Origin: a virus | Length of the DNA stretch: 25,203 nucleotides | Virus record (IMG/VR): IMGVR_UViG_3300013123_000391 | Location: 1 to 25,203 of that record | Reading direction: 5' to 3' (one strand) | Part shown: positions 2,523-25,203 of the stretch, in pieces | How the letters are laid out: the number at the start of each line of letters is the position of its first letter | How positions within the stretch are numbered: position 1 is the stretch's first letter | Program-made: the position numbers and the translations under genes | The notes under the pieces: generated by a model | Seen by the model: only the letters and a program-made list of their open reading frames with translations | Database searches by the model: none | Told to the model about the DNA's origin: nothing

Positions 2523-2574
2523 TTGACAAGTTAGAGGGTCCCTGCAATCCTAGAACCAGATTGTGATCGACTGA
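2523..2574 (+). promoter_or_regulatory. Promoter-like element, copy 2 of the CTAGAACCAG motif
   Basis: TTGACA (2523-2528), CTAGAACCAG (2550-2559) and GATCGACTGA (2565-2574) lie in the gap before the long structural operon. GATCGACTGA also occurs in copy 3. Here the distance from TTGACA to CTAGAACCAG is 21 nt rather than 6-7. So either TTGACA is not the working -35 box here or the conserved word is a regulator site rather than part of the core promoter. Confidence 0.45.
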
Positions 2575-2594
2575 TGGACCTACAGGAGACTATG

Positions 2595-3275
2595 ATGTCG
2601 TTTAATCCCATGCGGGCGGCGGCCAAGCAAGCTAGACCCCGTCGGCAAATCGATCCTCGCGCTGGGCGTAGACATAGTGAGATCATGAATCGTCAGGGTC
2701 CACACTCCGTCCAGCTAGCTGACATGTCCCGACGGACACCGACGGAGAATGGGTGGAAGATCACCATCTTCGAGGGTCCAGATTTCGAAGTTCTCTACTA
2801 CTACCTCTGTGCCAAAAACAACACTGGAAAGATCACCAACAAGGATCAAGACCGTGTGGTCAGGGTCCTTTCGGGACGACTTTTCGTTGCTGTTGATGGA
2901 AAGACACCTGAGGAGGTAGGAGTTCACCAGAGTGTCGTCCTCCCACGAGGAGCGGTCTACGAGCTGGCTTCGTCAGGGACAGAAGACACAGAGCTGATCA
3001 TCTGTCAAGGACCTGACTACTTCTCGAAGATCGAGAAGCTCTCGTTGGGGCACACCAACACCATTCAACAGGCTGTGGCCCCTGCTCCTGCTGCACCTTC
3101 TGTCACTCGCCGACCTGTTTCGAAAGCGGTTGCTCAAGCTACTGCTCTCAGCTCCGCCAAGGAAGAGGTCAAAGTTCGGCGGGTTGCTGCACAGAAACGG
3201 GCTCCCTTAGCAGGTCAGCAAGTCACGGGGATCAACCCCAAGCCTGTAGGGGCAGGCGGCTTCGCTGAAGACTAG
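2595..3275 (+). CDS. Cupin-like protein with disordered tails
   Basis: About 227 aa. Start ATG 2595 is preferred (AGGAG 2584-2588, 6 nt upstream); ATG 2592 and 2574 are in frame. Residues about 45-150 look like a single cupin barrel: KITIFEGPDFEVLYYYLCAKNN, DRVVRVLSGRLFVAV, HQSVVLPRGAVYEL, TELIICQGP. The usual cupin metal ligands (His-x-His...Glu, then His) are largely absent, so it may be a structural or binding cupin rather than an enzyme. The N-terminus is basic (KQARPRRQIDPRAGRR) and the C-terminal 75 residues are Ala/Pro/Lys-rich and probably disordered. First gene of the long operon that includes the portal. Confidence 0.6.
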   Translation: MSFNPMRAAAKQARPRRQIDPRAGRRHSEIMNRQGPHSVQLADMSRRTPTENGWKITIFEGPDFEVLYYYLCAKNNTGKITNKDQDRVVRVLSGRLFVAVDGKTPEEVGVHQSVVLPRGAVYELASSGTEDTELIICQGPDYFSKIEKLSLGHTNTIQQAVAPAPAAPSVTRRPVSKAVAQATALSSAKEEVKVRRVAAQKRAPLAGQQVTGINPKPVGAGGFAED

Positions 3276-3284
3276 GAGAAGTTC

Positions 3285-4367
3285 ATGAGTCTCCCGGTGC
3301 TCTACATTGCATTGCCGGCAGCTGATGGGAGACTCGAGAAGTCTCTTCAGTCGGAGCGAGCCAAACATCCTCAAGAGAAGAAGCCTGCCTGGTCTTACTT
3401 CGACGGACTTCTGAAGGCTGTTCTGATCAAGGCAGGACTGATTTCTAGTCCCAACGAACCAAAGAAGCCAACAGGGCCGTTGGTAAGTGCCGCTGGTCAT
3501 GTGACTCAGCCCAAGAATAAGGTCGTCTCACCAGCTCGCAGTCTTGTCACACCTTCTGGACAATCAGTTCATGAGATGAAACCCAGCCAGACACCCCCAA
3601 AGGTCGTCTCACCGGAACATGCTTTAGTAAGCCCAACTGGTCAGCATGTTTCGTCTCAGCAAACTCCAGAGATGCCATCGGGGTTTCGAGGTCGAGTTGA
3701 ACTCAAGAAGCCAGAAGAGCCCTCAAAGATCACTCCTGTAACCTCAACTTCGTCAGTTCGTAGTAAAGAACAGACCCAACAGACTCCGGCGCTAATGAAG
3801 CTTGATGAGCGTCGAGTTCAGTTCAAGCAGCAGGCGGATGCTTTCAGAGCCAGACAGGGTTATGCCCAAGCTTCAAGACAAGCATCCAAACCCCAAGCAG
3901 CTTTGGCCACCCCCACTGCCATGGTTGCTCCAAAGGTTCCAGGCCACGAATCAACGGGTGCATCAAAGCCTTCTGGTGGTTCTGATGATGGAGGATCAAA
4001 ACCAACCAAGAAGACTCCGGAGTTGTCTCCCGCAGCACCTGACAGAAGTAGTGGCACCCGCAGAGGCATCAATGTTCTAGGTGCCTACAACACAGGGCAT
4101 GTGTTGGGGTCAAGTGCCAACACTCCTGGCGGGGGTACGACCGCTCTCAACATGGTGGCGGGCAGAGCAGTAGGAGCTGCTCACGGACTTCTTAACCGCC
4201 ACACAGCTTCACATGTCGAGGGCGCCAGGTCGGGTCGAGAGGGACAGATCCAGAGACAGCAGATCGTCAATCGTCAGCTTGGTGAGGGCGGTGGTGTTGT
4301 AACACAGAAATCACTCGAAGCAGTCAGCATCGCATCAGCGATGGTCCGTCCTGGGATCAGAAGGTGA
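3285..4367 (+). CDS. Disordered repeat protein, probable virion component
   Basis: 360 aa, ATG 3285 with AGGAGA 5 nt upstream. After a short hydrophobic start (LPVLYIALPAADG) comes RLEKSLQSE, then a long low-complexity region rich in Pro, Ser, Lys and Gln. Three copies of an LV-[ST]-P-[ST]-GQ-x-V-like unit lie near residues 66, 87 and 114. The C-terminal 100 residues are Gly/Ala-rich (NTPGGGTTALNMVAGRAVGAAHGLL) and may pack as short helices. Contains two Lys-Ser-Leu words (near residues 19 and 343). No family recognised. The stop overlaps the start region of the next gene, so translation is probably coupled. Its place upstream of the portal suggests a head protein. Confidence 0.6.
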   Translation: MSLPVLYIALPAADGRLEKSLQSERAKHPQEKKPAWSYFDGLLKAVLIKAGLISSPNEPKKPTGPLVSAAGHVTQPKNKVVSPARSLVTPSGQSVHEMKPSQTPPKVVSPEHALVSPTGQHVSSQQTPEMPSGFRGRVELKKPEEPSKITPVTSTSSVRSKEQTQQTPALMKLDERRVQFKQQADAFRARQGYAQASRQASKPQAALATPTAMVAPKVPGHESTGASKPSGGSDDGGSKPTKKTPELSPAAPDRSSGTRRGINVLGAYNTGHVLGSSANTPGGGTTALNMVAGRAVGAAHGLLNRHTASHVEGARSGREGQIQRQQIVNRQLGEGGGVVTQKSLEAVSIASAMVRPGIRR

Positions 4368-4372
4368 TGACG

Positions 4373-5455
4373 ATGAGACTCTACTTGAGTAAGAGTGTCC
4401 AGTTCCCAGATGAGGCAGCTCAGGCATTGCAGAAGACAGAACCGGACACAACCGGTAGGCTTGAGGGTCAATTCAAGCCAGCTGCTTTATCTGAGATGAT
4501 CAAGCAGCTCAATCGAATCGTCAGTGCTGAATACAGCCAATGGCTTCGGTACCATCATTATGCCTTGGTTCTTCGTGGTCATTCCCGTGATGTGCTCGCA
4601 GAAGAGTTCAAGTCACATGGAGACGATGAACTAAGGCATGCTGAGCGTGTTGCCTCAAGAGTAGTTGCTCTCGGTGCATCCCCATCTACAGAGATCGAAA
4701 GTCCAGTAACACTTCATGACACTGAAGAGATTCTGAAAGAACTTCTCTACCGAGAGCAGAAGGGCATTCAGCTTTACCGTGAAGTGCTTGTCTTGTGTGG
4801 GGAGAACGAAGGAACTCGCCAGATCATTGAGTCAAATATCGAAGACGAGCAGCACCATGTGGATGATCTATGGCGATTGCTCGACGATTCGTCTTTGATC
4901 AAGGCTGGGGCAGCTGTTGAGTCGGCTGGCCGTTCGACGTTCCCCTCTGCAGAACAGGCCAAACGACAGTACGACAACAGCTTTGAACGTCAGGCACAGG
5001 GCATCACGGGGGGTGATACACCGGACCTCCCAGACCAAGGTCGGGATTGGCATGGGACGGTCCCAGGTGTCAAAGATGAGCCCCAGGACTCTGCTCAGAG
5101 CGATGGCGGTGGTCAAGACGATAGCGACGAGCAGAGTCCAGTCCAGAAGGTTTGGGCAAATCCACAGACCCCATTTCAGGCGGCAGGAACACCCTCTGAA
5201 CACGAGGAAGAGCAAGCTTCCGCTGGGCCTAAGAACCCGACTCAGGATGCTATCAAGAGCTTCTCTGGGGCTCCTAGATTCGCACAAGGGCCTTTGATTC
5301 CTCCGCGTGAGAAGGAGTGGCTTCTCACACAAGGTTATTCACCTGAGGAAGTTGAAACAGGCCAGGTCCAGATCACTCCTTGGATGAGAGCTGAGTTCAA
5401 TCGTTGGCTGCAGGGGACGATCCGCAAGTCTCTCTTCAGTTTGAATCGGAGGTAG
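4373..5455 (+). CDS. Ferritin-like domain protein in the head operon
   Basis: 361 aa. ATG 4373 is chosen because AAGGTGA (4361-4367) is 5 nt upstream; GTG 4364 and ATG 4367 are in frame. Residues about 36-170 form a four-helix ferritin/bacterioferritin-like domain. Helix A carries Glu53 (AEYSQW), helix B Glu86-x-x-His89 (DELRHAE), helix C Glu128 (YREQK), helix D Glu159-x-x-His162 (DEQHH). That is the full di-iron ligand pattern, so iron binding or oxidation, or a purely structural use of the fold, is possible. Residues 180-300 are disordered. The C-terminus (YSPEEVETGQVQITPWM...FNRWLQ) is a small helical domain ending RKSLFSLNRR. Only 3 nt from the portal start. Confidence 0.8.
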   Translation: MRLYLSKSVQFPDEAAQALQKTEPDTTGRLEGQFKPAALSEMIKQLNRIVSAEYSQWLRYHHYALVLRGHSRDVLAEEFKSHGDDELRHAERVASRVVALGASPSTEIESPVTLHDTEEILKELLYREQKGIQLYREVLVLCGENEGTRQIIESNIEDEQHHVDDLWRLLDDSSLIKAGAAVESAGRSTFPSAEQAKRQYDNSFERQAQGITGGDTPDLPDQGRDWHGTVPGVKDEPQDSAQSDGGGQDDSDEQSPVQKVWANPQTPFQAAGTPSEHEEEQASAGPKNPTQDAIKSFSGAPRFAQGPLIPPREKEWLLTQGYSPEEVETGQVQITPWMRAEFNRWLQGTIRKSLFSLNRR

Positions 5456-5458
5456 CAC

Positions 5459-7324
5459 GTGGCAGCTCCTGCAGTGGACTACACTGACATCCAGAAGTCG
5501 ATCTCGATGTCACCAGATGCGATCTACGAAGAGGTGCAGAGGCTCAAGGAGCTGACGGCCCATATTCCGGCCATAGCTAAGGGTGATCCTAGAGCTATGC
5601 AGAAGGCACTAGCAGTAGCACCTGGCAAGCCTCAACGTGGCCCCAAGTCAGCGTTCTTCGATCCTTTGTCTCTTCAGTATGCAATGGGGTACAAGGATCG
5701 TCGCTACTCGTTGACTTATGATGTGCTGAAGCGGGTGGCAAACCAGCTCTCCATCGTTGCCGCAATCGTCAATACGCGAATTGCTCAGGTTGCTTCGTTC
5801 TCTCAGCCCTATCGGACTACCAAGTCTCTTGGGTTCATCATCAAGCACAAAGACCCTGAGCACATGACGACAGAAGCTGAGCGTCAGTTCATCAAGCAGT
5901 TGGAGGCATTTGTCCTCGATTGTGGTGAGCCTGGCCGCCAGAACCCGTACAGTCGTGGTCCTCGAGACGACTTCGAAGCGTTTCTCAAGAAGATCGTTAG
6001 AGATACTCTCTACTATGATCAAGTGACGTTCGAGGTAGTCCCTAGAAATAACGGCATCCCGTTTGAGTTTCTGGCGGTTGATGCCTCGACCATCCGACTG
6101 GCCTCAACAGACCGTGATGCTGGTGTGGGGTTCAGCTATCACGTTCGCAATCCTGTGGCACCACTGACTGGGCGATTTGCTGGTCTCTACGCTGGACAGC
6201 AGTATGGGTCGAGAGATCCTCTGACCGACAAGGATGTCCAGTACGTTCAGATCATCAATGGGCAGATCGAGAATGTCTACAGCCTGGACGAGCTAACTTT
6301 CGGCATTCGGAATCCGCGCACGGACATCTACATCCAGGGTTATGGATTTGGTGAGATCGAACAGCTCATCACCATTGTGACTTCTCTTCTCTTTGCGGAG
6401 GAGTACAACAAGCGATACTTCACACAGGGTTCACATCCAAAAGGCATCCTGAACTTCAAGGGTGACAACTGGACCCCAGATCAGCTGGAGGCGTTTCGTC
6501 GCCAGTGGGTTGCTTCAGTCTCGGGTGTAGAGAACGCATGGAAGACACCGATCACTCAGTCAGAGGGTATCGAGTGGATTGGGCTCCAGATGACCAACAA
6601 GGACATGGAGTTCAATTCTTGGATCGAGTATTTGATCAAGATCACCTGTGGTGTCTTTCTGATCGACCCTGCTGAAATCAACTTCGATCTTCATGGTGGT
6701 GTGCAACAGACCCCGCTCTTTGAGTCGTCGCAGGAGTGGAAGCTCAAGGCTTCTCGTGATCGTGGCCTCAAGCCACTGCTTCGCTTCATTGCGAAGATGA
6801 TCAATCGTCATGTCATTGACAAGATCGATGACCACTTCGTGTTTGAGTTCGTAGGCCTCGATGAGCTTTCGGAGCAGGAAAAGCATGAGATGCTCAAGGA
6901 GCAGATCGCGAGCTACATGACTCTCAATGAAGCGCGACGCTCGCTTGATCTCCCTGACATTCCTCTTGGTGATGTCCCGATCAACCCGACCTACGTGCAG
7001 CTGCTACAGCTATTTGCCCAGCAACAGCAACAACAGCAGCAGATGGCAATGCAGCAGCAACAGATGCAACAGCAAGATGCACAGCAACAGCAGATGGCGG
7101 GAGCCCAAGGGCAGCTGCCTGAGGGTGCAGAGCAGCAGGTTGGTGGTGTGCCTGGTCAACAAAGTCTTCCACCAGGAGCCACTCCAGTTCCAGGGCAGTC
7201 GGAGACTCCGCAGTATGCTGCGAACTTCAACAAGTCCATGAGGGAGATCGTCGTCACATTTGACGACTTCATCGACCAGCAGCGGAGTAAGACCGATGCC
7301 AAAGCAGCCAATTCACCTCGGTAG
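5459..7324 (+). CDS. Portal protein
   Basis: 621 aa from GTG 5459, with GGAGGT 5 nt upstream. Residues about 65-510 resemble HK97/SPP1-type portal proteins. They show an N-terminal helical segment (LTYDVLKRVANQLSIVAAIVNTRI), the mixed wing region, GYGFGEIEQLI..LLFAEEYNKRYFTQGSHPKGIL, and a helical crown (EQEKHEMLKEQIASYMTLNEARRSLDLP), the last being a very typical portal sequence. Twelve copies would form the DNA entry vertex and bind terminase, scaffold and connector proteins. The C-terminal 110 residues carry a Gln/Met run and then disordered Gly/Pro sequence, ending with NFNKSMREI. Longer than most portals of the family because of this tail and an N-terminal extension (DIQKSISMS). Confidence 0.9.
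   Translation: MAAPAVDYTDIQKSISMSPDAIYEEVQRLKELTAHIPAIAKGDPRAMQKALAVAPGKPQRGPKSAFFDPLSLQYAMGYKDRRYSLTYDVLKRVANQLSIVAAIVNTRIAQVASFSQPYRTTKSLGFIIKHKDPEHMTTEAERQFIKQLEAFVLDCGEPGRQNPYSRGPRDDFEAFLKKIVRDTLYYDQVTFEVVPRNNGIPFEFLAVDASTIRLASTDRDAGVGFSYHVRNPVAPLTGRFAGLYAGQQYGSRDPLTDKDVQYVQIINGQIENVYSLDELTFGIRNPRTDIYIQGYGFGEIEQLITIVTSLLFAEEYNKRYFTQGSHPKGILNFKGDNWTPDQLEAFRRQWVASVSGVENAWKTPITQSEGIEWIGLQMTNKDMEFNSWIEYLIKITCGVFLIDPAEINFDLHGGVQQTPLFESSQEWKLKASRDRGLKPLLRFIAKMINRHVIDKIDDHFVFEFVGLDELSEQEKHEMLKEQIASYMTLNEARRSLDLPDIPLGDVPINPTYVQLLQLFAQQQQQQQQMAMQQQQMQQQDAQQQQMAGAQGQLPEGAEQQVGGVPGQQSLPPGATPVPGQSETPQYAANFNKSMREIVVTFDDFIDQQRSKTDAKAANSPR
7019..7093 (+). repeat. Gln/Met-rich codon run in the portal gene
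   Basis: CAG/CAA codons dominate these 25 codons, broken by ATG, GCA and GAT, giving a Gln/Met-rich tract near portal residues 521-545. CAG and CAA are mixed, so it is not a pure triplet repeat. The tract is probably maintained at protein level, though slippage could vary its length. Confidence 0.8.
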
Positions 7325-11684: not shown

Positions 11685-12584
11685 ATGGTTCTCTCCAGAG
11701 CACAGATTGAGAAGCTGGCCGAGATCATCCGTTGTCACACCACATGGCTCATGTGGAGGATGTTTGGGGATCAGGAGATCACTGAGAAGGATCTCCATGA
11801 TCTGAAGGCCAGCGGTAAGCTTCCGATGGATGTTAATGCATCAGCTATTCGCTATGCTTACGTCCTTGGGAAGCTTCAATCTCTGCTCAAGGAGGCCGAG
11901 TTCAAGAAGCTCACCTGGAAGCAGCTCCAGGAAGTAGCAACTGGTCGCTACACGGACGTAGATAAGCTGCAGATCAAAGCGGCAGAGCTGTCGGCTCAGA
12001 CTGAGTTTCGCAGTCTGATGGACGACATCAAGAATGGTCTCTACCAGAGACTTGCACAAGCGACTCATCGTACAGTAACCGAAGGGCATGTTAGGTCTAC
12101 AATTTCTGACAAGATCAAGACTGGTACTGATCTAAATCAGACTTATCGACAAGTAGCCAGAGAGCTAGTGGAGGCTCTGAAGGAACCTCATCGGAACTGG
12201 GAGAGGTTGGCTGCTACAGAGTTGCACACAGCTAAGCAGCGTGGAGTGATGACTGCGATCTCTCAGAAGGAGGGTATCTACGCTGACTCTGATGGGATCG
12301 ACAGTGATGTGGCTATTGTACATGATGCCGATATGTGTGATGACTGTCGGCGAATCTATTACGATCCCAAGACTGGGAACCCAAAGATCTTCAAGCTCAA
12401 GGAGCTGTTGGAGAATGAGGGAACGAATTACCAGAGACCTTGGAGATTGCATGCCAAGCCGGTGGTGCCTCCGCTGCACCCACACTGCTTTGGGCGTTTG
12501 AGATACGTGCCCCCTGGTTGGGGTTGGAATGATATGGGTCGCTTCACTCTGTTGCGACCTGAGGAAGCTTTCCCTGAGGTGTGA
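11685..12584 (+). CDS. Mu F-like minor head (head morphogenesis) protein
   Basis: 299 aa, ATG 11685, weak ribosome site, 4 nt after the previous stop. The C-terminal half matches the phage Mu protein F / SPP1 gp7 head morphogenesis family: RNWERLAATELHTAKQRGVMTAI, then MCDDCRRIYYDP (Cys218-x-x-Cys221), then PPLHPHCFGRLRYVPPG (His265-Pro-His267-Cys268), a conserved probable metal site. Residues 1-150 are mostly helical, as is usual. These proteins are minor capsid components that bind the portal and sometimes DNA. In this genome the gene is separated from the portal by six genes, where direct adjacency is more common. Confidence 0.85.
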   Translation: MVLSRAQIEKLAEIIRCHTTWLMWRMFGDQEITEKDLHDLKASGKLPMDVNASAIRYAYVLGKLQSLLKEAEFKKLTWKQLQEVATGRYTDVDKLQIKAAELSAQTEFRSLMDDIKNGLYQRLAQATHRTVTEGHVRSTISDKIKTGTDLNQTYRQVARELVEALKEPHRNWERLAATELHTAKQRGVMTAISQKEGIYADSDGIDSDVAIVHDADMCDDCRRIYYDPKTGNPKIFKLKELLENEGTNYQRPWRLHAKPVVPPLHPHCFGRLRYVPPGWGWNDMGRFTLLRPEEAFPEV

Positions 12585-13364: not shown

Positions 13365-16300
13365 GTGTTCGCTCTTTGGATCGATTTAGTCAAAGCTCAC
13401 CGAGGGGAACATCTAGGCGGGAAGTATGTTCTGCGGTGGTGGAAAAACGACCGCTGGAACTACAAGTACTCTGATCTCAGACATCCAAAGAACCATGGGT
13501 GGGCAGCCTCTGCTGTTTCAGATGAGCACTCCGTTACCACTCATTCGGATTCAGTTGCTCGAGGGCACACAGCAGAGCAAGCGTTCCACCATGCACGAGA
13601 GAAAGCCCTCAAGTCGGGTGCTGATGATGTGTCGATCATCCGCTCAGCAGAGGGTAAGCCTGAGCTGAAGCTCGTTGTCAGGCCCTCAGCAAAGCGCCCC
13701 TTCATCATCCTTCCGCACCGTAGTACGAAAGCACGAGATGCGGTAACTCATCTGCCCTCTTACGAGGCTGTTGAGAATTGGATGCGTCGTCGGTCGTCAA
13801 CTGCAACGGTCAACGACGCTTTTGGCAGACCCTGGTTTGAGGTGAGGGAACGAGGCCAGTCGGGGATCGATTCTCCGAGTGGGCGCATGTCGATTCGCTA
13901 CCATGCCGAGAGTCCGTTCAATCGGTTTCCAGAGCAAACAGGTAGCTGGGTCCCAAGTCCATTCTTCAAGCAGAACTTCAAGGAGTGGCTGAAGGAAGAG
14001 TACCGACAGCAGCGGGCATCGGGTCAGCGAGTCAAGCCGGCCAAAGAGTTTCCTATTGATCAGGTACGACCCACCACAACAGCACTGGAACAGGGAAGAC
14101 TCACCTGGCATCGAGTCCTTGAGCCTTACCAGGCCACGGTCAAGAGACAGACAGGGCAGCCGTGGCAGCGGAGAGGTCTGCGCTGGGTGCGCAAGCTCAA
14201 GGCCTCAGAGGCTGAGCAGCTGAAGCTCTGCGCGAACATCATCCGAGAGCATTTCGGATTGGCGGTTCTCTCTGCTCAGCGTCAGCTGACACTCTATAAC
14301 GTATTTGATCCTGGAAACATGGCTCGTCTCCTTGGTTACTATGGAGGGCCAGGTAGAGCCAAGAAGATTGAGATTGACCCTGACTCCCCCACGCTTCGGG
14401 CCGTGAAACGTGCAGTCAACTCTTATGATCCCCAGAAGGGATGGCGATTCAGTACCTACCTTGGACACTGTTTGTGGTGGGAGCACTTCAAAGAGACCAA
14501 GGCGATCCTCGACGAGGTCAAAGAGCGACGTAAGTTCATCTCGACTGTAGACCACAGTGGTCGAACCATGGACGTACTGGACCAAGTGAGCCGAGAAGAA
14601 TTGCCACCTGGCCATGAGGAGATTGTCAGTGAGGGTGCTCATGCTCAGTCAGCGGAAGATGATCTGATTGCTCGTGAAGAATCGCTGCAGGAGTGGTCAG
14701 GAAGACAAGAAGATCGTTTGGCCAAATACGTAGCTTCGGACACTGCAGATCATGAGAGACAGGTCACTTCATTTCTGGCTTTGCATGAATTGAAGGAGAT
14801 CAAGTCACCTGAGCAAGCTCAAGCTTTCATTGTCCATTGGCAGTCAGAGGGTGGGGATGAGTTTGTTGAACCCTTTGAGCGTGAAGTTGAGGAGCCAAAG
14901 GTTCAGAAGCTATCGGGATCGGAGAAGCACTCTTGGGTCACGATGGTCAAGCAGCATCCGTTGCTCACAGCAGCTGAGCGAGCCGCTATTCTGACCTTGG
15001 CCCCCAAGGGAGACCTCCAGAACATCAGGCCATTTACTGAGGTCACAGCTGAGTTGGCCACAAAGCACACACGAGAGTTTCCTCGTCCCCCGACAGAGAG
15101 CCAGCTGGTTGATCTCTTCTTGAGTGCTCATCAGAAGCTGTCTGGCCTACCGGAGTTTCAAGCGATGCAGGCAAAACTATCCCCTGTGGCGAAGGCAATT
15201 CAGCTGCTGCAGAGCCTCAGCATGAATCGTCTCTCGAAGGCTCTCGATATCCTCCGCAAAGCCCAGAAGGGCACCCGTTCCCAGCACTACAAGTACTGGA
15301 GACGGGAGGGAGTTCCTGGAAGCTATCGGTATTACTACCGAGATCATGTGGGGAATGTCATTCAGGGAACGAATGCTCCGGTGGGGCATGCCCATTATGA
15401 CAAGAAGCTAGGAACGCCACAGCTACATCGAGACGAACCTGATCCCATTCAACACCCGCAGTTCTTCGATCCTCGTTCAGGTCGCAAGATGAACCGTGCC
15501 GTTCCGGAGCATGCGGAATGGAACCCAGAGTACAACAAGGCTGTTCCGTTGCGGATGTGGGGGGCCAGGTGGCGGGCAGACCCAAATGACGAGACCTCCC
15601 ATTTCGAACACGGGTACTACGATAGTGATCTCCGTGAGCGAGATGAGTTGAAGTTCAATCAGGACAATCGTCACTTTGATCAGCAGCTCCCAAAGGTGAG
15701 GAAGTTCTATAGTTCTCTGATGCAGTCGAAGCAATTGGCGCATCGGGCACTGGGGCTCATGGTTGCTCTTTTGGATCAAGCCTACATGCGCGCTGGTAGG
15801 AAGATCCATGAGGAAGAGAGGGGCACGATTGGTCTGACGACCCTCAAAGTAGGGAACGTCAAGATCAAAGGCAACATGGCGACGTTTTCCTACGTTGGCA
15901 AGTTGGGCGTCGACCAACAGCAGGTTGTAGTTCTCGATCCCAAGTCGATGTCGATCTTGCAGGAGCTGACACTGGCTGAGGGGAAGAAGAGAACGGACTA
16001 CCTCTTCTCAGTGCCTGTGCGTCGTGGCTCTCAGGTCAAGTTCCAAGAGATTGGGTACAATAAGCTTCGAAGAACCTTGGCCACCTTGGGTGTCACGCCC
16101 AAGCAGTTCCGCACCTATCATGGTACGGAGATCTTCTCTCGAGCTTTTGAGAGACTGCTCCAGCAGTACAGCCAGGGGCGGATTACAGCCAAGACCCTTT
16201 CGGGTGTGACAGAGGAAGCGGCCCTTGAGTCAGCAAAGGCTCTGGGCCACTACATCGGTAAGGGTGAGGACCGCAAGGCCCACGCAGCTACAGCTCTTCG

Positions 16301-17222
16301 GAGCTACATCGATCCGGTGGCGGTTAAGTCACTTTGGATGAATGCCATTGATCCTGACATGCAGAAGGCTCATCCCCTCATGGGTCGGATCAAGTATGAG
16401 GGCATGAACATTGCGATTGAGAACAAGAAGGGTTCTTATCGCGAGTGGTATGACCCTAATGCCAAAGAGCATGGTCGTACCAAGATGAACTACGACTACG
16501 GCTATGTGAGTGGGTCAAAGGGGGTCGATGGGGATGCCGTGGATGTTTACATGGGGCCACACAAGAACTCTGAGCGGGTCTTTGTGATTCACCAGATGAA
16601 GAAGCCAGACTTCACTGAGTTCGATGAGGACAAAGTGATGCTTGGTTTTGACTCCCCAGAGGAAGCCAAGGCCGCCTACCTCAGACAGTATGATAACCCC
16701 AAGTTCTTCGGTAGCTTGACAGAGATGTCATTGGATGACTTCAAGCAGAAGATCAAAGACAAGGGTCTTCGTGGCAAGATGCTCAAGTCCATTGACGAAC
16801 CTGAACCGGGCGACGATGATGAGGTGCCAGCTCATTCTGTGGTGGCAGATCCACCAGATCGGTTTGACCACGAGGTTGGCTTCAGTGAGTGGCTGCACAG
16901 TCATCCTCTCCACGAGAGTGAGCATGAGTGGCAGTACCTGAATCAGATGGCGGGTGGGAAGCTAGATCTCCCGAACCCTGAGACGGATCATGAGGAGCCG
17001 GATGATGTTGACGCAGAGGACGAGCTTGATTCCACTGATCGTAGTGGACCCGCAGACGAATCGACTCCTCAATCTGCTTGGGAAGAGCCTGCAGGAGATT
17101 CAGAAGAGCAGGAAGCTGCTGCCAACGGAGGAGCCCCTTCTGAAGGCGAAGCAGTACAGCCACCAGGAGAAGGCCCACTTCGCGAAGATCAGAGCCAGGT
17201 ACGGAGCCCCAGTCCGACCTGA
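13365..17222 (+). CDS. Giant multidomain protein: sigma-like, topoisomerase IB, pyrophosphatase-like
   Basis: 1285 aa from GTG 13365 (GGAG 6 nt upstream). Residues 17-38 carry a GGKY...WNYKY module. Residues about 280-400 resemble sigma-70 region 2 (AVKRAVNSYDPQKGWRFSTYL..LWWEHFKE), and 530-595 could be a region 4-like helix-turn-helix (LTAAERAAILTLAP...TESQLVDLFL). A second module (LSKALDILRKAQKG, then GSYRYYYRD) at 623-660 starts the next unit. Residues 720-990 are a type IB topoisomerase with all five catalytic residues visible: Arg809 (MRAGRK), Lys846 (YVGKLG), Arg916 (QFRTYHG), His962 (LGHYIG), Tyr981 (SYIDP). Residues 1002-1135 match the inorganic-pyrophosphatase-like domain of polyvalent proteins (DYGYVSGSKGVDGDAVDVYMG, KVMLGFDSPEEA). 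The tail is acidic. Relaxation of DNA supercoils is the expected activity; a role after injection is inferred. Confidence 0.85.
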   Translation: MFALWIDLVKAHRGEHLGGKYVLRWWKNDRWNYKYSDLRHPKNHGWAASAVSDEHSVTTHSDSVARGHTAEQAFHHAREKALKSGADDVSIIRSAEGKPELKLVVRPSAKRPFIILPHRSTKARDAVTHLPSYEAVENWMRRRSSTATVNDAFGRPWFEVRERGQSGIDSPSGRMSIRYHAESPFNRFPEQTGSWVPSPFFKQNFKEWLKEEYRQQRASGQRVKPAKEFPIDQVRPTTTALEQGRLTWHRVLEPYQATVKRQTGQPWQRRGLRWVRKLKASEAEQLKLCANIIREHFGLAVLSAQRQLTLYNVFDPGNMARLLGYYGGPGRAKKIEIDPDSPTLRAVKRAVNSYDPQKGWRFSTYLGHCLWWEHFKETKAILDEVKERRKFISTVDHSGRTMDVLDQVSREELPPGHEEIVSEGAHAQSAEDDLIAREESLQEWSGRQEDRLAKYVASDTADHERQVTSFLALHELKEIKSPEQAQAFIVHWQSEGGDEFVEPFEREVEEPKVQKLSGSEKHSWVTMVKQHPLLTAAERAAILTLAPKGDLQNIRPFTEVTAELATKHTREFPRPPTESQLVDLFLSAHQKLSGLPEFQAMQAKLSPVAKAIQLLQSLSMNRLSKALDILRKAQKGTRSQHYKYWRREGVPGSYRYYYRDHVGNVIQGTNAPVGHAHYDKKLGTPQLHRDEPDPIQHPQFFDPRSGRKMNRAVPEHAEWNPEYNKAVPLRMWGARWRADPNDETSHFEHGYYDSDLRERDELKFNQDNRHFDQQLPKVRKFYSSLMQSKQLAHRALGLMVALLDQAYMRAGRKIHEEERGTIGLTTLKVGNVKIKGNMATFSYVGKLGVDQQQVVVLDPKSMSILQELTLAEGKKRTDYLFSVPVRRGSQVKFQEIGYNKLRRTLATLGVTPKQFRTYHGTEIFSRAFERLLQQYSQGRITAKTLSGVTEEAALESAKALGHYIGKGEDRKAHAATALRSYIDPVAVKSLWMNAIDPDMQKAHPLMGRIKYEGMNIAIENKKGSYREWYDPNAKEHGRTKMNYDYGYVSGSKGVDGDAVDVYMGPHKNSERVFVIHQMKKPDFTEFDEDKVMLGFDSPEEAKAAYLRQYDNPKFFGSLTEMSLDDFKQKIKDKGLRGKMLKSIDEPEPGDDDEVPAHSVVADPPDRFDHEVGFSEWLHSHPLHESEHEWQYLNQMAGGKLDLPNPETDHEEPDDVDAEDELDSTDRSGPADESTPQSAWEEPAGDSEEQEAAANGGAPSEGEAVQPPGEGPLREDQSQVRSPSPT

Positions 17223-20200
17223 GCTGGACGGGCAGGGCAAGATTGTCATCAGTAGTGTTCCAGTGGGGAGTACCTTCTGGTGTACCCCTCAGTCTGGACC
17301 TCTGTCTCATCGACACGTTCTTGTAGCCAGGCTACCGGACAACAAGGCTGCTATTGTGGGTGGGGCTGGTGTAGTGCCTCCACAAAAAGAGACTGATCCA
17401 GAGACAGGCAAAGAACGAGTCACTGGTGGGAAGGGGGCAGAGTATCTTCACTTCGCTTCCAAGATGGGTGATCGGCAGTCCAAGGCCCCTCCGACTCCAG
17501 AGGAAATGGAGGCGACTCAGAAGCAATCAAAGGTCAAGGAACACATCAAGAAGATCCATGATGAGGCTGCTCCTCTCAAGAAAAAGCTGATGCGCCAAGC
17601 CAAGAGGCTGAAGGACAATGTGCTTGGTGCCGTGGGTATCCGAAAAGATGCGGCTTCATTGTTCGGCCAACAGCTCGAGGGAGTGAAGGAGCATCTCGCA
17701 ACACAGCTTCGACAAGCAGGTCTGGATGAAAAGAAGATCGATGGTGCAGTCGATCTTGCCATTTCTCGTATGAAGTCAGAGAAGAGAGATCGTGCATCAG
17801 AGGTACTGGGAAAGACCATCGAGGCTCTGCAGGACGCCAAGAAGCAAGTTGAACAGGGCAAAGAGCCCAAGCTCAACGTCAAAGACTTCACGTCTGAGAT
17901 GCACCTCGACATGAACCTCTCGGGGGAGGATATCAACAAGCTTGCTGACGCTGAGACCCCTCAGGAAGTTCAGGTCGCAATGCACGACATCATGGATGAC
18001 AAGATCCATGAGGCTCAGATGCGTGGTGGTGAAGCCTTATCAGGGCCAGGTGCTGTGGACCTTTCCATTCGCCCCTCGGAGCCTAAGCTTCCTATCAAGG
18101 ATCAGAAAGAAATCCTAGCAGCGCAAAAGACTGCTGAGAGTCTGGTTCAGACACTCAAACAGACCGATGCCTATGATAGGAAGATCGAAGATGTGAAGCG
18201 GAAGGCGGTCTATGCGTCCAGACAACCAGAGGGCATGGATCCTGACGTAGAAGAGATGCGTCTTCACGCAGTGCTTGTTGATCACCAGGACCTTCTCGAC
18301 ATGGGAATCGATGAGAAGGATATCTATGCTGCTGCATCCAACATTCGAGAGACAGCAGCGTCGATGCCCAGGGAGACCAACCTTTACAAAGCTCTTGCTT
18401 CCCACTGGAAAGACGAGACGGGCGGCAATGTCAAGGGCTACATGAATGACGGTGCCACAAGCACTCTCACAGGGTTTGTGTCTGGTTTTGCTCCAGGTCT
18501 GGGTGTCCCAGATCTGAAGAAGCTAACCGACAGTCTTGGGCCAGAGTTGGCCTCTTATGCCATGGCTTCGTACCTTCACGATCTAGCAGAGAAGGGTACT
18601 ACAACCATCTCTAACCCAAAGACAGGCAAGCGAGAGAAGTTCACGCTCGAGCATTATGATCAGATGGTTCACGACATCACGATGTGGAATCGCGTGAATC
18701 AACATGCAGCTGAGGAGCGTGCGCTTCAGAGGCTTGGCGAGATCGAAGATGCGCAGAAGGTCTTGCGTGAGCAGATGGCTTCGGGGGATATCGCTGTCAA
18801 CGATGAGTTGATCGAGCGTCTGAAGAAAGCAGGACTCAGCACCAGGAATGTCCAGAAGATCGACACCGAAGGTCTTCGGGATCGAATGGCAGCTCTTCAG
18901 ATGGACAACCGCTATCTGGATGAGCAGGAGAAGCTAGTCGGAGAGACGATTGGTGGTCTCCAGACAGCTGCTGGGTTCCTCTACTCTCTGAAGTCTGTTC
19001 GTCGAGGTCGTGAGGCCAATGAGGATCTCCGAGACCTATCCATGCATGTGGGTGGAGAGGGCTTGTCTGAGGGTGAACAAGAGAAGCTGGTTCGCGAGAA
19101 GCTGAAGAGCTTGGGCATCAAGTCACGTGAAGAGGTCGCAGTCGAGACGGGGCCTGAGGGAGCAACGATTCGATTCCGTGGTGAGAGACTTGTGCCTCAC
19201 CTTGAGCGGTGGGTACAGGATGCGCAGAAGGCATCCAAGCTGAACGCGATCAAGGACGACACTTCTCAGATCAACGAAAAGACCAATGACTGGATTGACA
19301 AGCCCTTGTCCAAAGGTGGACTTGGGACTGCTCAGGAGATTCTGCCTCAGCTCAAGTCTGGGGAGAAGCTACGTGGCAACCAAGCGACAGATATTCGTTG
19401 GCTGATGCAAAGTGGTGGTGGAGTCATCACCAGATCAACTGCTGCTGGCAAGACACTGACGGGGTTGGGCTATCTTGGGGCTCGAGTCGACCAAGACATG
19501 AAGGGTCCCAACGCTGGTTATCGTGGGGTGGTGATCGTTCCACCAGCAAAGGTCAGTGAGTGGGTCCAGGAGGCTGCAAAGTTCTTCGATCCTGAGAAGA
19601 TCAGCATCGTTCACTGGAAGCCAGTCCTCGACAAGAACAAAGAGCCAACAGGGAAGTTTGTCGACCCCAAGCTCCCCAAGCAGGGTGAAGGTCGAGCCTA
19701 TATCGTCGAGGTCCCGGAGCATTACTCAAAGGGGCAAATCGACAGTCTGCTCAAGCAGACGAAGCATCTCAAGCACGCCATCTTTGTCATGAACCACCAG
19801 TCGGCAGCAGAGAACAATGAGTATCTCGAGCGCCAGATGGGTGGTTCTGGTCGCCCACCGAATGGGATCGTTGTGGATGAACCGCAGATGCTATTGGGTC
19901 TGCGTGGGCGCAACCGAATGAACATCGGTAAGCGCATCTTCAGCATTCCTTCCACGCACAAAGTGGCCCTCACAGCGACTCCGGCTCGTGAGAATCTTCG
20001 TGAAGCCTATGATCTTGTGCGCTGGTCAGCGCAGCGTCCTGCCGTAGATGAGAAGGGTGCTCCGATCTACAAGGAGACAGTGAACCCTAAGACCAAAGAG
20101 CCAACTGGGAGAATGCGTCCAGTCTATGAGAAGGAGGCAGGCCGCCAGGTCGGGAAGAAGAGTGCCCAGCCTCGGCCATTCATCCCCTACGAGATGTTCA

Positions 20201-21345
20201 AGCAGCTCGAGGGTGGTAGCACGAGCGCTCAGCGTGACCTTCTTGCCAGAGACATCATGGACCAGATCGGTCCATATGTGAGTGGTGACGATGTCAAGAA
20301 GGTCTCCTTCAAGATCAATCATCACGATGTGCATGTACGCCGTTCTGATATCCAAAGAGTGTCTCAGAAGCAGATCGAAGCTCAGCAGGCTGCTGTCTAC
20401 AAGAAGCATCAGGACAAGGCCCAGAAGGGTGGCATTCTCACGACCGAGGATGGCAGAAGAATCAAGTATGCCAAGATCAGTGCAGATGATCCCGCCGGTC
20501 GTAGAGAACAGATGAAGAGGGCAAGACAGAACGCTGAGAATGAGATTGCCAATCTTCATCGGCTCAATGTCGATGCTGCTGATCCTGATGACAACCCCAA
20601 GATTCAGTCTTTGGTCCATAACCTCAAGGCTGAGATCCAGGGTGGAGTTCGCATTCGGCATGAGGGGAAGACAGAGAAGCGTGAGAAGATCTCTGGCAAG
20701 AAGCGAAAGCACATTGTAGTGGTCAGCTCTCCCCAGCAGGCAGCAGCTGTACAACATGCACTTGATCAGGCGGGAATTGCCAATGTCAGTATGGCAACCT
20801 CACTGCGAGATGCGAAGAACCCTGAGCTACTGACCAAGGACATCAAGGATGGAGGTCAGCTCAAGGGGACAGTTGTCGATGCTCGGAAGAAGATGTGGAA
20901 AGAAGACTCAGACAGGATCGATGACAAGACCGGTAAGTACGTCAAGGGTGAGTACAAGATTCCTGTTGTGATCATCGACAAGGATACTGCAGCTGGGCAC
21001 AACCTTCAGGAGGCTGACACACTCCACGTTGTTGGTGCTCCAGATGACGCAGCGACTCTTCTCCAGGCTCACGGTCGGGCAGCTCGTGACCCGAAGTTGG
21101 GTGATCAACTTGACATCTACACCTATCGCCACACAGACAGTCCCTTTGAACACGCTCATTGGGACAATCTGCACCGGCAGATGGATTTCATCCGAGCAAC
21201 CTCTCCGGGCATGGTGACAAAGCCTCAGATGATGCCTGAGAAGCGCAAGGAAGTGCTCCATGCGATTCGTGAGGCCAAAGAGAAGGCGGCCTCTGCACCT
21301 CAGAAGCCTGTTCGTAAGAGCTTGGGGCTCTTCGTGACGGCATAG
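17005..21345 (+). CDS. Giant SF2 helicase
   Basis: About 1446 aa from ATG 17005, chosen for GAGGAG (16992-16997) 7 nt upstream; ATG 16990 and 17002 and GTG 17044 are alternatives. Residues 80-145 hold a small domain (SHRHVLVARLPDNKAAIVGGAG) typical of large phage polyvalent or helicase proteins. Residues 160-760 are mostly helical. The helicase core is near residues 785-1380: QAT before it, motif I STAAGKT (Lys816), motif II VVDEPQ (Asp958-Glu959), motif III ALTATPAR, motif VI QAHGRAARD. So it should be an ATP-driven DNA or RNA translocase of superfamily 2. It ends with VRKSLGLFVTA. It overlaps the upstream topoisomerase gene by about 218 nt in a different frame. It is located inside the structural operon, not with replication genes. 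Confidence 0.85.
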   Translation: MLTQRTSLIPLIVVDPQTNRLLNLLGKSLQEIQKSRKLLPTEEPLLKAKQYSHQEKAHFAKIRARYGAPVRPELDGQGKIVISSVPVGSTFWCTPQSGPLSHRHVLVARLPDNKAAIVGGAGVVPPQKETDPETGKERVTGGKGAEYLHFASKMGDRQSKAPPTPEEMEATQKQSKVKEHIKKIHDEAAPLKKKLMRQAKRLKDNVLGAVGIRKDAASLFGQQLEGVKEHLATQLRQAGLDEKKIDGAVDLAISRMKSEKRDRASEVLGKTIEALQDAKKQVEQGKEPKLNVKDFTSEMHLDMNLSGEDINKLADAETPQEVQVAMHDIMDDKIHEAQMRGGEALSGPGAVDLSIRPSEPKLPIKDQKEILAAQKTAESLVQTLKQTDAYDRKIEDVKRKAVYASRQPEGMDPDVEEMRLHAVLVDHQDLLDMGIDEKDIYAAASNIRETAASMPRETNLYKALASHWKDETGGNVKGYMNDGATSTLTGFVSGFAPGLGVPDLKKLTDSLGPELASYAMASYLHDLAEKGTTTISNPKTGKREKFTLEHYDQMVHDITMWNRVNQHAAEERALQRLGEIEDAQKVLREQMASGDIAVNDELIERLKKAGLSTRNVQKIDTEGLRDRMAALQMDNRYLDEQEKLVGETIGGLQTAAGFLYSLKSVRRGREANEDLRDLSMHVGGEGLSEGEQEKLVREKLKSLGIKSREEVAVETGPEGATIRFRGERLVPHLERWVQDAQKASKLNAIKDDTSQINEKTNDWIDKPLSKGGLGTAQEILPQLKSGEKLRGNQATDIRWLMQSGGGVITRSTAAGKTLTGLGYLGARVDQDMKGPNAGYRGVVIVPPAKVSEWVQEAAKFFDPEKISIVHWKPVLDKNKEPTGKFVDPKLPKQGEGRAYIVEVPEHYSKGQIDSLLKQTKHLKHAIFVMNHQSAAENNEYLERQMGGSGRPPNGIVVDEPQMLLGLRGRNRMNIGKRIFSIPSTHKVALTATPARENLREAYDLVRWSAQRPAVDEKGAPIYKETVNPKTKEPTGRMRPVYEKEAGRQVGKKSAQPRPFIPYEMFKQLEGGSTSAQRDLLARDIMDQIGPYVSGDDVKKVSFKINHHDVHVRRSDIQRVSQKQIEAQQAAVYKKHQDKAQKGGILTTEDGRRIKYAKISADDPAGRREQMKRARQNAENEIANLHRLNVDAADPDDNPKIQSLVHNLKAEIQGGVRIRHEGKTEKREKISGKKRKHIVVVSSPQQAAAVQHALDQAGIANVSMATSLRDAKNPELLTKDIKDGGQLKGTVVDARKKMWKEDSDRIDDKTGKYVKGEYKIPVVIIDKDTAAGHNLQEADTLHVVGAPDDAATLLQAHGRAARDPKLGDQLDIYTYRHTDSPFEHAHWDNLHRQMDFIRATSPGMVTKPQMMPEKRKEVLHAIREAKEKAASAPQKPVRKSLGLFVTA

Positions 21346-22031: not shown

Positions 22032-22910
22032 ATGATTGATCTCATCAAAAGTAACGAGTTTGACTTCTGGCTACCGCTCGATATCAACAAGAGCGACACA
22101 GCCAAGAAGACTCTCGGCCACACTCGGTGGGTTCAGGGCATCTCCTCCACCGAGGATGAAGATCTTCAGACTGAGATCGTTGAGCAACGTGGGATCGATA
22201 CTGAGTACTTTCTGCAGTACGGGTACTACAATAACGACCACAAGCCCGGTTTTGAGAACAAAGTCGGTCAGCCAACTGAAGCAAGGATCACCAAAGAAGG
22301 TCTTTGGACCAAGGGCTTTCTTTGGGAGCCTGGCACCCACAAGGTCGCTGATGCGATCTGGGAGTTGGCCAACGCTCTCGCTGCCTCAGGCTCTACTCGC
22401 AAGCTCGGTTTCTCTATCCAAGGCAAGGTCATCCGTCGGGCGGGTCGTCGCATCCTGAAGTGCTGGATTCAGGATATCGCGATCACTGCTGCACCGATCA
22501 ACACCCACACATGGCTGGACGTTGTGAAGTCTCTGAACGCAGTTCCAGCTGATATGTGGTGTGTACATGATCAATCCGGATTGATCATGCCGGAGACTGC
22601 ACTTGGAAAGTCGGTCGCTTGCGTTTGCAAGAAGCCTTGTGGCGCCTGCAAGAAGGGCATCGTAGAGGCTCCCTCGAACGAGGGTGATCTCGATCTGAAC
22701 AAGACTGAGGATGAGCAGAAGGCGTTTACGACTTCCAGTGGTGCGGCGTTGGTTCCTGAAAGTCTTGACTCCAAGGTCAGAGATCAGAAGTGGGCAAACA
22801 AGTCACTCTCATTCGATGAGTGTGTGGATCTGCTTCACAGGGAACGTGGACTTTCAAGAACCGAGTCCATCGTCCTGACTGAAGCGGTCTTTGAGATCAA
22901 CCGGAACTAG
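22032..22910 (+). CDS. Prohead (capsid maturation) protease
   Basis: 292 aa, ATG 22032, weak ribosome site. Residues 10-165 match the HK97-type prohead protease family (peptidase S78-like, herpesvirus-protease fold). They show YYNNDHKPG with likely catalytic His70, RITKEGLWTKGFLWEP, RKLGFSIQGKVI with likely nucleophile Ser128, and WIQDIAITAAPINTHTWL containing the family's typical 'i-t-a-x-P-x-n' ending. It would cut scaffold and other head proteins during assembly. VVKSLNA at residues 165-170 directly after the protease domain may be a self-cleavage point. The C-terminal third is extra and holds CVCKKPCGAC, a Cys cluster, and another NKSLSF. It precedes scaffold and capsid genes as usual. 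Confidence 0.85.
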   Translation: MIDLIKSNEFDFWLPLDINKSDTAKKTLGHTRWVQGISSTEDEDLQTEIVEQRGIDTEYFLQYGYYNNDHKPGFENKVGQPTEARITKEGLWTKGFLWEPGTHKVADAIWELANALAASGSTRKLGFSIQGKVIRRAGRRILKCWIQDIAITAAPINTHTWLDVVKSLNAVPADMWCVHDQSGLIMPETALGKSVACVCKKPCGACKKGIVEAPSNEGDLDLNKTEDEQKAFTTSSGAALVPESLDSKVRDQKWANKSLSFDECVDLLHRERGLSRTESIVLTEAVFEINRN

Positions 22911-22926
22911 CAAGGGAGACAAGAAG

Positions 22927-23925
22927 ATGTCCGACAAGATCACGCAGCACGACTTCTTCAAGTCCCTGGCTCGACTGGAGGCTCTCGCCAAGGGTGAGAC
23001 CGGGGAGCAGACGGACATGAACAAGTCGCAGATCTGCACCGGTCCCAACAGCGAGGTCTCGAGCTGGGCAGGGAGCACCAAGGACCAGATCGGTGACAGC
23101 TGGGATGACAGCATCACTGGTGGCGGAACCGACTACAACGGTGGCGCCAAGAAGGTCCGCAAGTCCATCGCCGAGAAGGTCATGAAGGGCCAGCCGCTGA
23201 CCCCGCAAGAGGTTGCACTTCTGAAGAGCGATCTCGAGCACAGCGAAGTCTCGAAGGGTCAGGACGAGCTGCCGCCATTCATGGCTGGTGGCAAGGACGA
23301 CGACAAGGACAAGAAGGACGACAAGGACAAGAAGGACGACAAGAAGAAGGACGACAAGGACAAGAAGGACGATGACGAGCCCGAAGACGAGATGTTCGGG
23401 AAGTCTCTCCAGTCCGAAGTCGCAGCCAACGAGACCCTGCGCAAGGGGATCGAGGTCAGCGAGTTCCTGTCGGAGTTCGCGAAGTCCTTCGCTGCTGGTC
23501 TGCAGGGGCTCGAGGCTCGTGTGACCAAGCAGGTCACGGACCACGTGACCAGCCGGGTTCTTGGCGCCCTCACTGAGTTCGCCAGCAACCAGGGCGAGTT
23601 CAACAAGAGCCTGGCTGATGCCATCGTCAACATCGGTCACGGCATCCAGGGGACGATCCAGCAGCAGGAGCAGATCGCTCAAGCTCCGGCTGGCGCCCCC
23701 AAGTCCCAGATGCGTGTGGCCCCGGCACCAGGCCGCCCAAACCTGCAGGTTCTGAGCAAGAGCCAGGGCGAGCAGCAGCTCACCAAGGCCCAGGTTCTGG
23801 ACCGCATGGGTGATCTCGTCGAGAAGGGCAAGCTGAACTCGCTTGACGTGATCAAGTTCGAGATGACCGGCCAGATGGGACCGGCGGTCGAAGATCTCGT
23901 GATGAAGAGCTTCCAGGCGGGCTAA
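22927..23925 (+). CDS. Scaffold-like protein
   Basis: 332 aa, ATG 22927 with AGGGAG upstream. Position between protease and capsid, high charge, low complexity and helical character fit a scaffolding protein, which fills the prohead and is removed by the protease. A Lys/Asp repeat lies near residues 123-151. Six Lys-Ser-hydrophobic words occur (FFKSLARL, VRKSIAEK, FGKSLQSE, FAKSFAAG, FNKSLADA, and VMKSFQAG at the very C-terminus), the densest in the window. The C-terminal 60 residues (KAQVLDRMGDLVEKGKLNSLDVIKFE) are a compact helical part that may bind the capsid protein. From this gene onward third codon positions are mostly C or G, unlike upstream genes. No sequence family is claimed. Confidence 0.7.
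   Translation: MSDKITQHDFFKSLARLEALAKGETGEQTDMNKSQICTGPNSEVSSWAGSTKDQIGDSWDDSITGGGTDYNGGAKKVRKSIAEKVMKGQPLTPQEVALLKSDLEHSEVSKGQDELPPFMAGGKDDDKDKKDDKDKKDDKKKDDKDKKDDDEPEDEMFGKSLQSEVAANETLRKGIEVSEFLSEFAKSFAAGLQGLEARVTKQVTDHVTSRVLGALTEFASNQGEFNKSLADAIVNIGHGIQGTIQQQEQIAQAPAGAPKSQMRVAPAPGRPNLQVLSKSQGEQQLTKAQVLDRMGDLVEKGKLNSLDVIKFEMTGQMGPAVEDLVMKSFQAG
23293..23379 (+). repeat. Lys/Asp-coding tandem repeat in the scaffold gene
   Basis: The unit GACGACAAGGACAAGAAG (Asp-Asp-Lys-Asp-Lys-Lys) is repeated about four times, once shortened, within 29 codons. The result is a run of alternating acidic and basic residues, likely a flexible or single-alpha-helix spacer. Near-identical DNA units suggest recent expansion. 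Confidence 0.85.
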
Positions 23926-23965: not shown

Positions 23966-25203
23966 ATGTACGGACAGATTTCGCTGCGTCACTACGAAGG
24001 GCTGAACGGCTTCGGTTCCGCACCCGCCATGGATGTGGCCGAGTTGTCGAAGGCTCTTGAGGCCGGCTATCAGCTGACCAACCAGACGGGTGGCTCCGCT
24101 CTCCGTGTGGAGTCGCTCGAGGCCAGCCTCAAGGTGGTGACGTACTCCAACTCTCACATCAAGTTCTGGAAGAAGATCCCGAAGAGCCCTGCCTACTCGA
24201 CGGTTGAGGAGTACAATCAGCTGATCGACTACGGCACCAATGGCGCGTTTGCGTTCACGCAGGAAGGAGAGCTTCCTCCCAGCACAGACAGCAACTACGC
24301 CAGACGCACGCAGCTCGTGAAGTTCCTCGGGACCACGAGGGAAGTGACCCATCCAGCCACGCTGGTTCACCCGGCGCATTGGGATGTGATCGCACTCGAG
24401 AACCAGAACGGCATCCTCTGGCTTCTCGAGCGTGTCGAGAACGCTCTCTTCACTGCTGACAGCTCGCTTGCTTTCGACGGCGAGAGTGAGCAGTGGGATG
24501 GTCTCGATGCCCTGGTCGATGCCACCTCGTTCGTCGATCTCGAGGGTCAGCCGATGCAGGAAGCTGACATCGAGGAAGCTTCGAACATGATCATCGAGAA
24601 CTACGGCTACCCAACGGATCTGTTCCTGGGCACCCGGGTTCTGAGTGATCTCGTCAAGACGATGTATCCGCGTGAGCGGATCAACCTGCCGGCTCCTGTC
24701 AATGGAACCATCGGGCAGGCAGTCACCTCGATGGCAACCCAAGCCGGGACCATCGAGTTCAACCCGGATGTCTTCATCCGTCGGCTTCCGAGCCCACCGT
24801 CGGCAGCCACACATGCGAACGCTCCGGCGGTTCCGCAGCAGATCACCACTGGTGTGGCTGGTGTGGACGGTGACTTCAACAAGAACGCCGCTGCTGGCAC
24901 CAACTCCTACGCCTACGTCTGCACAGCCTGCAACCGCTTCGGTGAGTCGGCCTTCTCTCCGGTCATGGCGGCGGTTCAGGATGTCACCCAGGTCAACAAG
25001 GACGCTGGCGTGCATGTGGCAGTCACCCTGACCAATGCGGCAGCTATCGGTGCCTTCCCGACCGAGTTCTTCCGCATCTACCGCACAGCCCCCATGGCAT
25101 CGGGTGCGGCAGTCCCGACTGGTGCAGCTTCCTACAGCCTGATCATGCAGGTTCCGGCAGCTTCGCAGGCGGCTGGTGGCAACACCGTGGTGAACGACGT
25201 GAA
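23966..25203 (+). CDS. Major capsid protein, 3' end outside the window
   Basis: At least 412 codons, still open at the right edge. It begins MYGQISLRHYEGLNG. Residues 30-290 have the shape of large-phage HK97-fold capsid proteins that enter the shell without a long delta domain: SLEASLKVVTYSNSHIKFWKKIPK, TREVTHPATLV, WLLERVENALFTADSS, AFDGESEQWDGLDAL, FLGTRVLSDLVKTMYPRERI. Residues about 295-412 look like an inserted Ig/FN3-like beta domain (NSYAYVCTACNRFGESAFSP, then EFFRIYRTAP), which would decorate the outer surface. Strong C/G-ending codon choice and the best ribosome site of the window fit a highly expressed protein. Identity rests on gene order after protease and scaffold plus these motifs. 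Confidence 0.85.
   Translation, partial: MYGQISLRHYEGLNGFGSAPAMDVAELSKALEAGYQLTNQTGGSALRVESLEASLKVVTYSNSHIKFWKKIPKSPAYSTVEEYNQLIDYGTNGAFAFTQEGELPPSTDSNYARRTQLVKFLGTTREVTHPATLVHPAHWDVIALENQNGILWLLERVENALFTADSSLAFDGESEQWDGLDALVDATSFVDLEGQPMQEADIEEASNMIIENYGYPTDLFLGTRVLSDLVKTMYPRERINLPAPVNGTIGQAVTSMATQAGTIEFNPDVFIRRLPSPPSAATHANAPAVPQQITTGVAGVDGDFNKNAAAGTNSYAYVCTACNRFGESAFSPVMAAVQDVTQVNKDAGVHVAVTLTNAAAIGAFPTEFFRIYRTAPMASGAAVPTGAASYSLIMQVPAASQAAGGNTVVNDV

Follow-up and report, generated by a model that had tools for sequence, protein, structure and literature searches.

What would a tailed phage do with one protein that joins a sigma-factor-like module, a topoisomerase IB (TopIB) and an inorganic-pyrophosphatase-like (InPase) domain, and that is encoded among the genes of its head? 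The question is raised by a 25,203-base virus fragment, the entire IMG/VR record IMGVR_UViG_3300013123_000391 (hereafter the window), in which positions 13365-17222 form one uninterrupted frame of 1285 codons. Several globular domains of differing function lie in this one polypeptide, which is one mark of a polyvalent protein. The reading that we consider likeliest, with a probability near 0.5, is that the product is packaged in the virion and would deliver a sigma-like factor, a TopIB and an InPase into the cell together with the phage DNA.

The fused frame and its domains

The window protein was compared with its counterparts on two IMG/VR contigs, G001 (77.5 kb) and G002 (115 kb), both incomplete records. 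Its parts, all on the plus strand, are as follows.

13365..17222, +, whole fused open reading frame (ORF), 1285 amino acids, with a GTG start directly after an upstream stop; residues 1-1143 are kept in G001 and G002
13365..13976, +, N-terminal tag (residues 1-12, ..LWIDLVKA) and conserved N-terminal domain with no assigned fold (residues 1-204), from the three-phage alignment
14202..14534, +, sigma region 2-like domain (residues 280-390; core motif 349-385, RAVNSYDPQKGWRFSTYLGHCLWWEHFKETKAILDEV), from sequence and fold
14907..15182, +, sigma region 4-like domain (residues 515-606), from fold only, with no sequence profile match
15192..15554, +, linker with the K610-A site and a second tag-like segment (residues 610-730, HYKYWRREGVPGSYRYYYRD...), homologous to the N-terminus of stand-alone TopIB-like proteins in sister phages
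15555..16319, +, TopIB (residues 731-985) with catalytic R809, K846, R916, H962 and Y981, from Pfam and the three-phage alignment
16368..16784, +, InPase domain PF18823 (residues 1002-1140) with the motif D1055-G-D1057-x-V-D1060, from a Pfam match
16794..17219, +, acidic tail at the C-terminus (residues 1144-1285), for which G001 and G002 have a gene of its own

Both contigs encode the same fusion across residues 1-1143, with identities of ~59% (G001) and ~52% (G002); a further contig gives match values identical to those of G002 and is probably a near copy of it. Among the three phages synonymous sites are near saturation whereas non-synonymous change is low in all segments of the fusion, so the fused frame is maintained by purifying selection. 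For residues 1-1143 a frame error or a set of separate genes is ruled out because the fusion is conserved in the two other phages. A lone TGA reported in the G001 match was considered as a break and rejected, as the 1165-residue G001 ORF is uninterrupted by TGA. The last ~140 residues of the window protein, which in G001 and G002 correspond to the product of a distinct gene further downstream, are thus a local addition that by alignment lies outside the conserved fusion. For residues 1-204, no matches were found outside the three phages among the loci compared.

The enzymatic domains are readily recognized. Topoisom_I (PF01028) matches residues 758-962 with an E-value of 6.6e-26 (91.5 bits against a gathering cut-off of 23.7), and R809, K846, R916, H962 and Y981 are all present and invariant in the three phages, so that TopIB is apparently intact and looks catalytic in the window clade. 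A three-phage TopIB profile matches one archaeal and one Deinococcus TopIB (E ~1e-12); among named phages, the closest matches are weak ones to large phages (NCTB, E 6e-5). PF18823 matches residues 1006-1131 with an E-value of 2.9e-40 (137.7 bits against a gathering cut-off of 26.8), and the three aspartates of the DGDxVD motif (D1055, D1057, D1060) are present and invariant. InPase domains of this type also occur in portal and minor head proteins, including the solved portal chain 9b41, and the clade is described as occurring mainly in phage polyvalent proteins and as likely packaged (Iyer et al. 2017, PMC5512222). A preliminary description of the window had proposed a single protein at 13365-17222 with a complete TopIB carrying these five residues and an InPase-like domain (1002-1135) typical of polyvalent proteins, all of which is borne out here.

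In an unrelated phage, a 692-residue protein with an intact TopIB domain (L068:3332-5407) is encoded between the genes for a Mu-type portal and capsid protein E, a second link of TopIB with head genes.

The sigma-like module

The region 2 sequence match is short but specific to sigma factors. When a profile of residues 225-400 was searched against PDB sequences, all 26 matches were sigma factors (best E 0.021), and the whole protein matched SigA with an E-value of 0.0019. Sigma factors made up 17 of the 18 NCBIfam families reached with the three 205-640 segments, with RpoS as the best match over that range (E 9.9e-6), and a six-frame search placed a Pfam Sigma70_r2 match within the protein at the identical aligned place in 3/3 phages. 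Residues F362, T364, Y365, W371 and W372 are invariant in the three phages; we take them to correspond to the sigma70 residues that read and melt the -10 element, although alignment of the two tryptophans requires a gap of three residues. A chance RFSTY-like string is disfavoured by the near-pure lists of sigma matches and by the folding. Outside the three phages, no relative of the sigma part was confirmed in viral contigs apart from the further contig that matches like G002, none was found in genome contigs, and the sole tblastn matches in the phage collection had E-values of 0.5-0.7.

Residues 205-640 were modelled with AlphaFold from three sequences. The mean predicted local distance difference test (pLDDT) score was 50, with residues ~280-390 and 515-605 moderately confident (~70 in the sigma domain 2 part) and residues 390-510 unreliable, so nothing is claimed for region 3. 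Foldseek and VIA-align matched this model almost exclusively to sigma chains. In single-domain rows, domain 2 superimposed on sigma with Z-scores of 7-8 and a root-mean-square deviation (rmsd) of 2.4-4.0 Å over 74-109 residues; as the model does not fix the position of one domain against the other, TM-scores for the whole of it were low (0.12-0.16 by query length). To guard against a memorised region 2 motif drawing in entire sigma folds, the putative region 4 was also modelled in isolation. The resulting model of residues 512-615 had a pLDDT of 79.6, and its top six VIA-align rows were all sigma region 4, from four bacteria (Z 5.1-6.1), the best being E. coli sigma70 535-612 (Z 6.1, rmsd 3.5 over 75 residues); Foldseek alone returned nothing significant for it. 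Support for region 4 from the isolated fold is moderate.

The preliminary description had placed a sigma region 2 sequence at residues 340-380, for which the match lists, below the Pfam cut-off though they are, now speak, and had suggested checking residues 270-600 for a sigma fold, a check in which the longer model matched almost only sigma chains. Its possible region 4-like segment (530-595) has moderate support as a predicted fold and none from sequence profiles. Because the segment at the place of region 2.2 is diverged and the region 4 evidence is moderate, the module is described here as sigma-like and derived, and is not filed as a sigma factor.

A proposed delivery route and its alternatives

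The window gene set reads as a head module: ferritin-like, portal, MuF-like, the fusion, SNF2-related ATPase, head maturation protease, scaffold and capsid. Gene order is the same in G001 and G002, where the fusion gene likewise is surrounded by portal and capsid genes and lies between the MuF-like gene and the protease-scaffold-capsid genes. Within the protein, Lys followed by Ala or Ser occurs in all three phages only at residues 10, 610 and 1001, that is, at the end of the N-terminal tag, at the joint of the sigma-like module and TopIB, and at the joint of TopIB and InPase. These invariant K-A/S joints suggest processing by the head protease. In phage SPN3US, a prohead protease cleaves head proteins that are packaged and ejected (PMC10052503). 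A hydrophobic-K-A/S motif lies in the first 40 residues of 13 of the 17 head-module proteins of G001, as opposed to 8 of its 39 others (p 1.6e-4), and of 13/19 head-module proteins of G002, as opposed to 15/59 others (p 0.0018).

As a separate observation, many head-module proteins of the window (1664-25201) have hydrophobic-x-K-A/S close to the N-terminus, and the C-termini of several read KSL-hydrophobic (RKSLFSLNRR, KSLSLWVAM, RKSLGLFVTA); both motifs, noted post hoc, are possible capsid-targeting or prohead-protease sites.

On the reading that we favour, a polyvalent protein of a tailed phage would be expressed along with the head genes, loaded into the prohead and carried into the cell with the DNA. 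The head maturation protease would most likely cut at some of the Lys-Ala/Ser linker sites, so that the domains would enter the cell as separate proteins. There the sigma-like part would presumably bind host RNA polymerase (RNAP) and, through the use of promoters, initiate or bias transcription from the injected genome; TopIB would relieve torsional stress in incoming or transcribed DNA, and InPase would remove pyrophosphate or a signalling nucleotide, the sequence of these events being likewise presumed. Packaging, relaxation of incoming DNA and redirection of host RNAP, as the preliminary description had them, are plausible from gene order, the InPase domains of virion proteins and the intact TopIB residues. 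A stronger version, in which a working sigma factor sits in the head within a polyprotein, is split by the protease from TopIB and pyrophosphatase, and reprograms host RNAP before any phage gene is expressed, we regard as doubtful.

Several points weigh against delivery of an active protein. The Sigma70_r2 matches reach 12.4-13.9 bits, below the gathering cut-off of 24, and region 4 gave no match with PF04545, PF08281 or the PDB profile search. The segment before residue 349, at the place of sigma70 region 2.2, is diverged: HMM alignments begin after it, and by eye it has no clear counterpart. In sigma70, region 2.2 grips core RNAP by binding the beta-prime clamp. Packaging is something we infer purely from gene context. 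The K-A/S motif was chosen post hoc, and G001 and G002 share orthologues, so its enrichment is a lead and not a test. Finally, in five sister phages (G003, G004, G005, G007 and G008; portals 55-58% identical) a TopIB-derived domain can evidently, as judged by alignment, serve without catalysis.

The sister proteins occupy the same head-module position and are preceded by the same tag-like segment, so TopIB has been part of this module since before the clade split.

L061:10897-12168, L066:522-2087, L065:12219-13460, L064:18323-19621 and L062:8999-10528, eroded TopIB-derived proteins of the five sister phages, catalytic residues lost

They are recognisably homologous to residues 640-930 of the window protein. 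Their sequence is shorter near the first Arg and the Lys, and the Arg, His and Tyr that follow are missing or unalignable, so that by alignment the five form a natural series of topoisomerase erosion. In four sister phages InPase is encoded by an ORF of its own immediately downstream of the portal gene; none of the five yielded the sigma part.

Among the alternatives, an unpackaged late regulatory enzyme is unlikely. In that case a late sigma-like factor and a topoisomerase would act in the cell in which they are made, aiding late transcription and DNA packaging. The fusion does sit among late genes, phage DNA is strained in packaging and TopIB could relieve that strain, and T4 gp55 is a late phage sigma factor made in the infected cell. 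Against such an enzyme stand the fusion to an InPase of a polyvalent, virion-associated clade and the tag common to other head-module proteins; the regulatory role, moreover, could fall to another gene of G001, a small sigma-like one in the early region (L050:7807-8331; PF04542 E 1.3e-5, TIGR02937 E 3.1e-6). By eye, a G002 gene beside a similar VWA-like neighbour (L054:1386-1931) resembles a counterpart of it, but this gene gave no sigma match. No beta-type RNAP subunit was found in the incomplete G001 and G002 records, which fits reliance on the host RNAP; portal relatives, sought in genome contigs as a hint of the host, were not found there.

We also consider improbable a structural or DNA-condensing inner-head protein, in which the sigma-like and TopIB folds would be reused to pack DNA with little or no catalysis. 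The sister phages, which keep a TopIB-derived domain at the same place after loss of its catalytic residues, and the lack of a recognisable core-binding segment in the sigma module would fit such a role. It would not, however, require the five TopIB residues and the InPase DGDxVD motif, which are invariant in the clade, and the aromatics of the -10-reading type (F362, Y365, W371 and W372) are invariant as well. Least probable, and quite remote in our view, is a sigma mimic that turns off host genes through competition with the host sigma factor for RNAP or promoters: regions 2 and 4 have been retained, residues 390-510 at the place of region 3 are low in confidence and the core-binding segment is altered, but the invariant -10-type residues suggest engagement of DNA rather than pure competition.

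The protein is best classed with the phage polyvalent proteins (PMC5512222), as a variant that shares with them a large multidomain architecture encoded with head genes, an InPase of the same clade (PF18823) and an adjacent SNF2-type ATPase; the sigma-like module and TopIB are additional components. That paper does not mention sigma factors, and topoisomerase appears in it only in a reference title. The stand-alone TopIB of large phages (NCTB and others; PMC7824862) is likewise a topoisomerase I of the tyrosine-recombinase type, but there it has its own gene, unfused to sigma-like and InPase parts. The sister proteins share head-module place, tag-like segment and homology; they differ in the lost catalytic residues, in having no sigma part and in that InPase, where found, is a separate gene after that of the portal. 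With the sigma-70 family, including free-standing phage sigma factors, the window module has in common the region 2 sequence and the predicted region 2 and 4 folds in the right order; unlike these factors it scores below the Pfam cut-off, is diverged before the region 2.3/2.4 motif, has a long low-confidence stretch between its two domains and is fused into a 1285-residue protein. Virion-borne devices of transcription are exemplified by N4 virion RNA polymerase and by T4 Alt, an RNAP-modifying ADP-ribosyltransferase (PMC5512222). What the window protein is proposed to share with them is that the virion carries an activity directing transcription, but those are a polymerase and an ADP-ribosyltransferase, whereas here a putatively packaged sigma-like factor would recruit host RNAP. 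A sigma-like module with TopIB in a phage polyvalent protein, a combination that the preliminary description did not know of, was not found described in the literature searched, including PMC5512222 and PMC7824862.

If delivery holds, a virion-borne sigma-like factor would be another, simpler means of capturing host RNAP. Coupled to a topoisomerase, it would unite the entry of DNA, the relief of torsion and the first round of transcription in a single package. The domains are clearly bounded and flanked by candidate protease sites, so that recombinant fragments could be used to test each step; how such fusions arise and decay can be seen from the sister phages, in which the parts exist in separate and eroded forms.

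Neighbouring genes in the window

The annotated neighbours of the fusion gene, again on the plus strand, are as follows.

5459..7324, +, portal protein, context gene
11685..12584, +, MuF-like head morphogenesis protein, weak profile match
16990..21345, +, SNF2-related ATPase protein, overlapping the end of the fusion gene; a start at or after 17002 is possible
22032..22910, +, head maturation protease, candidate processing enzyme
22924..23925, +, head scaffolding protein, context gene
23966..25201, +, major capsid protein, SU10_MCP-like, cut by the window end

The MuF-like protein of G001 (L052:17807-19207) has an additional C-terminal part (YRQKEKYTCGPSAFLAVLEYYK...) that by eye resembles a C39-type peptidase and is missing from the window copy. 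Just 5' of the portal gene, a weak cupin match lies in the gene at 2574-3275 and a ferritin-like domain (E 4.2e-21) in the gene at 4364-5455. The N-terminal ferritin-like part of the latter product is unmatched in G001, where the match begins at residue 178.

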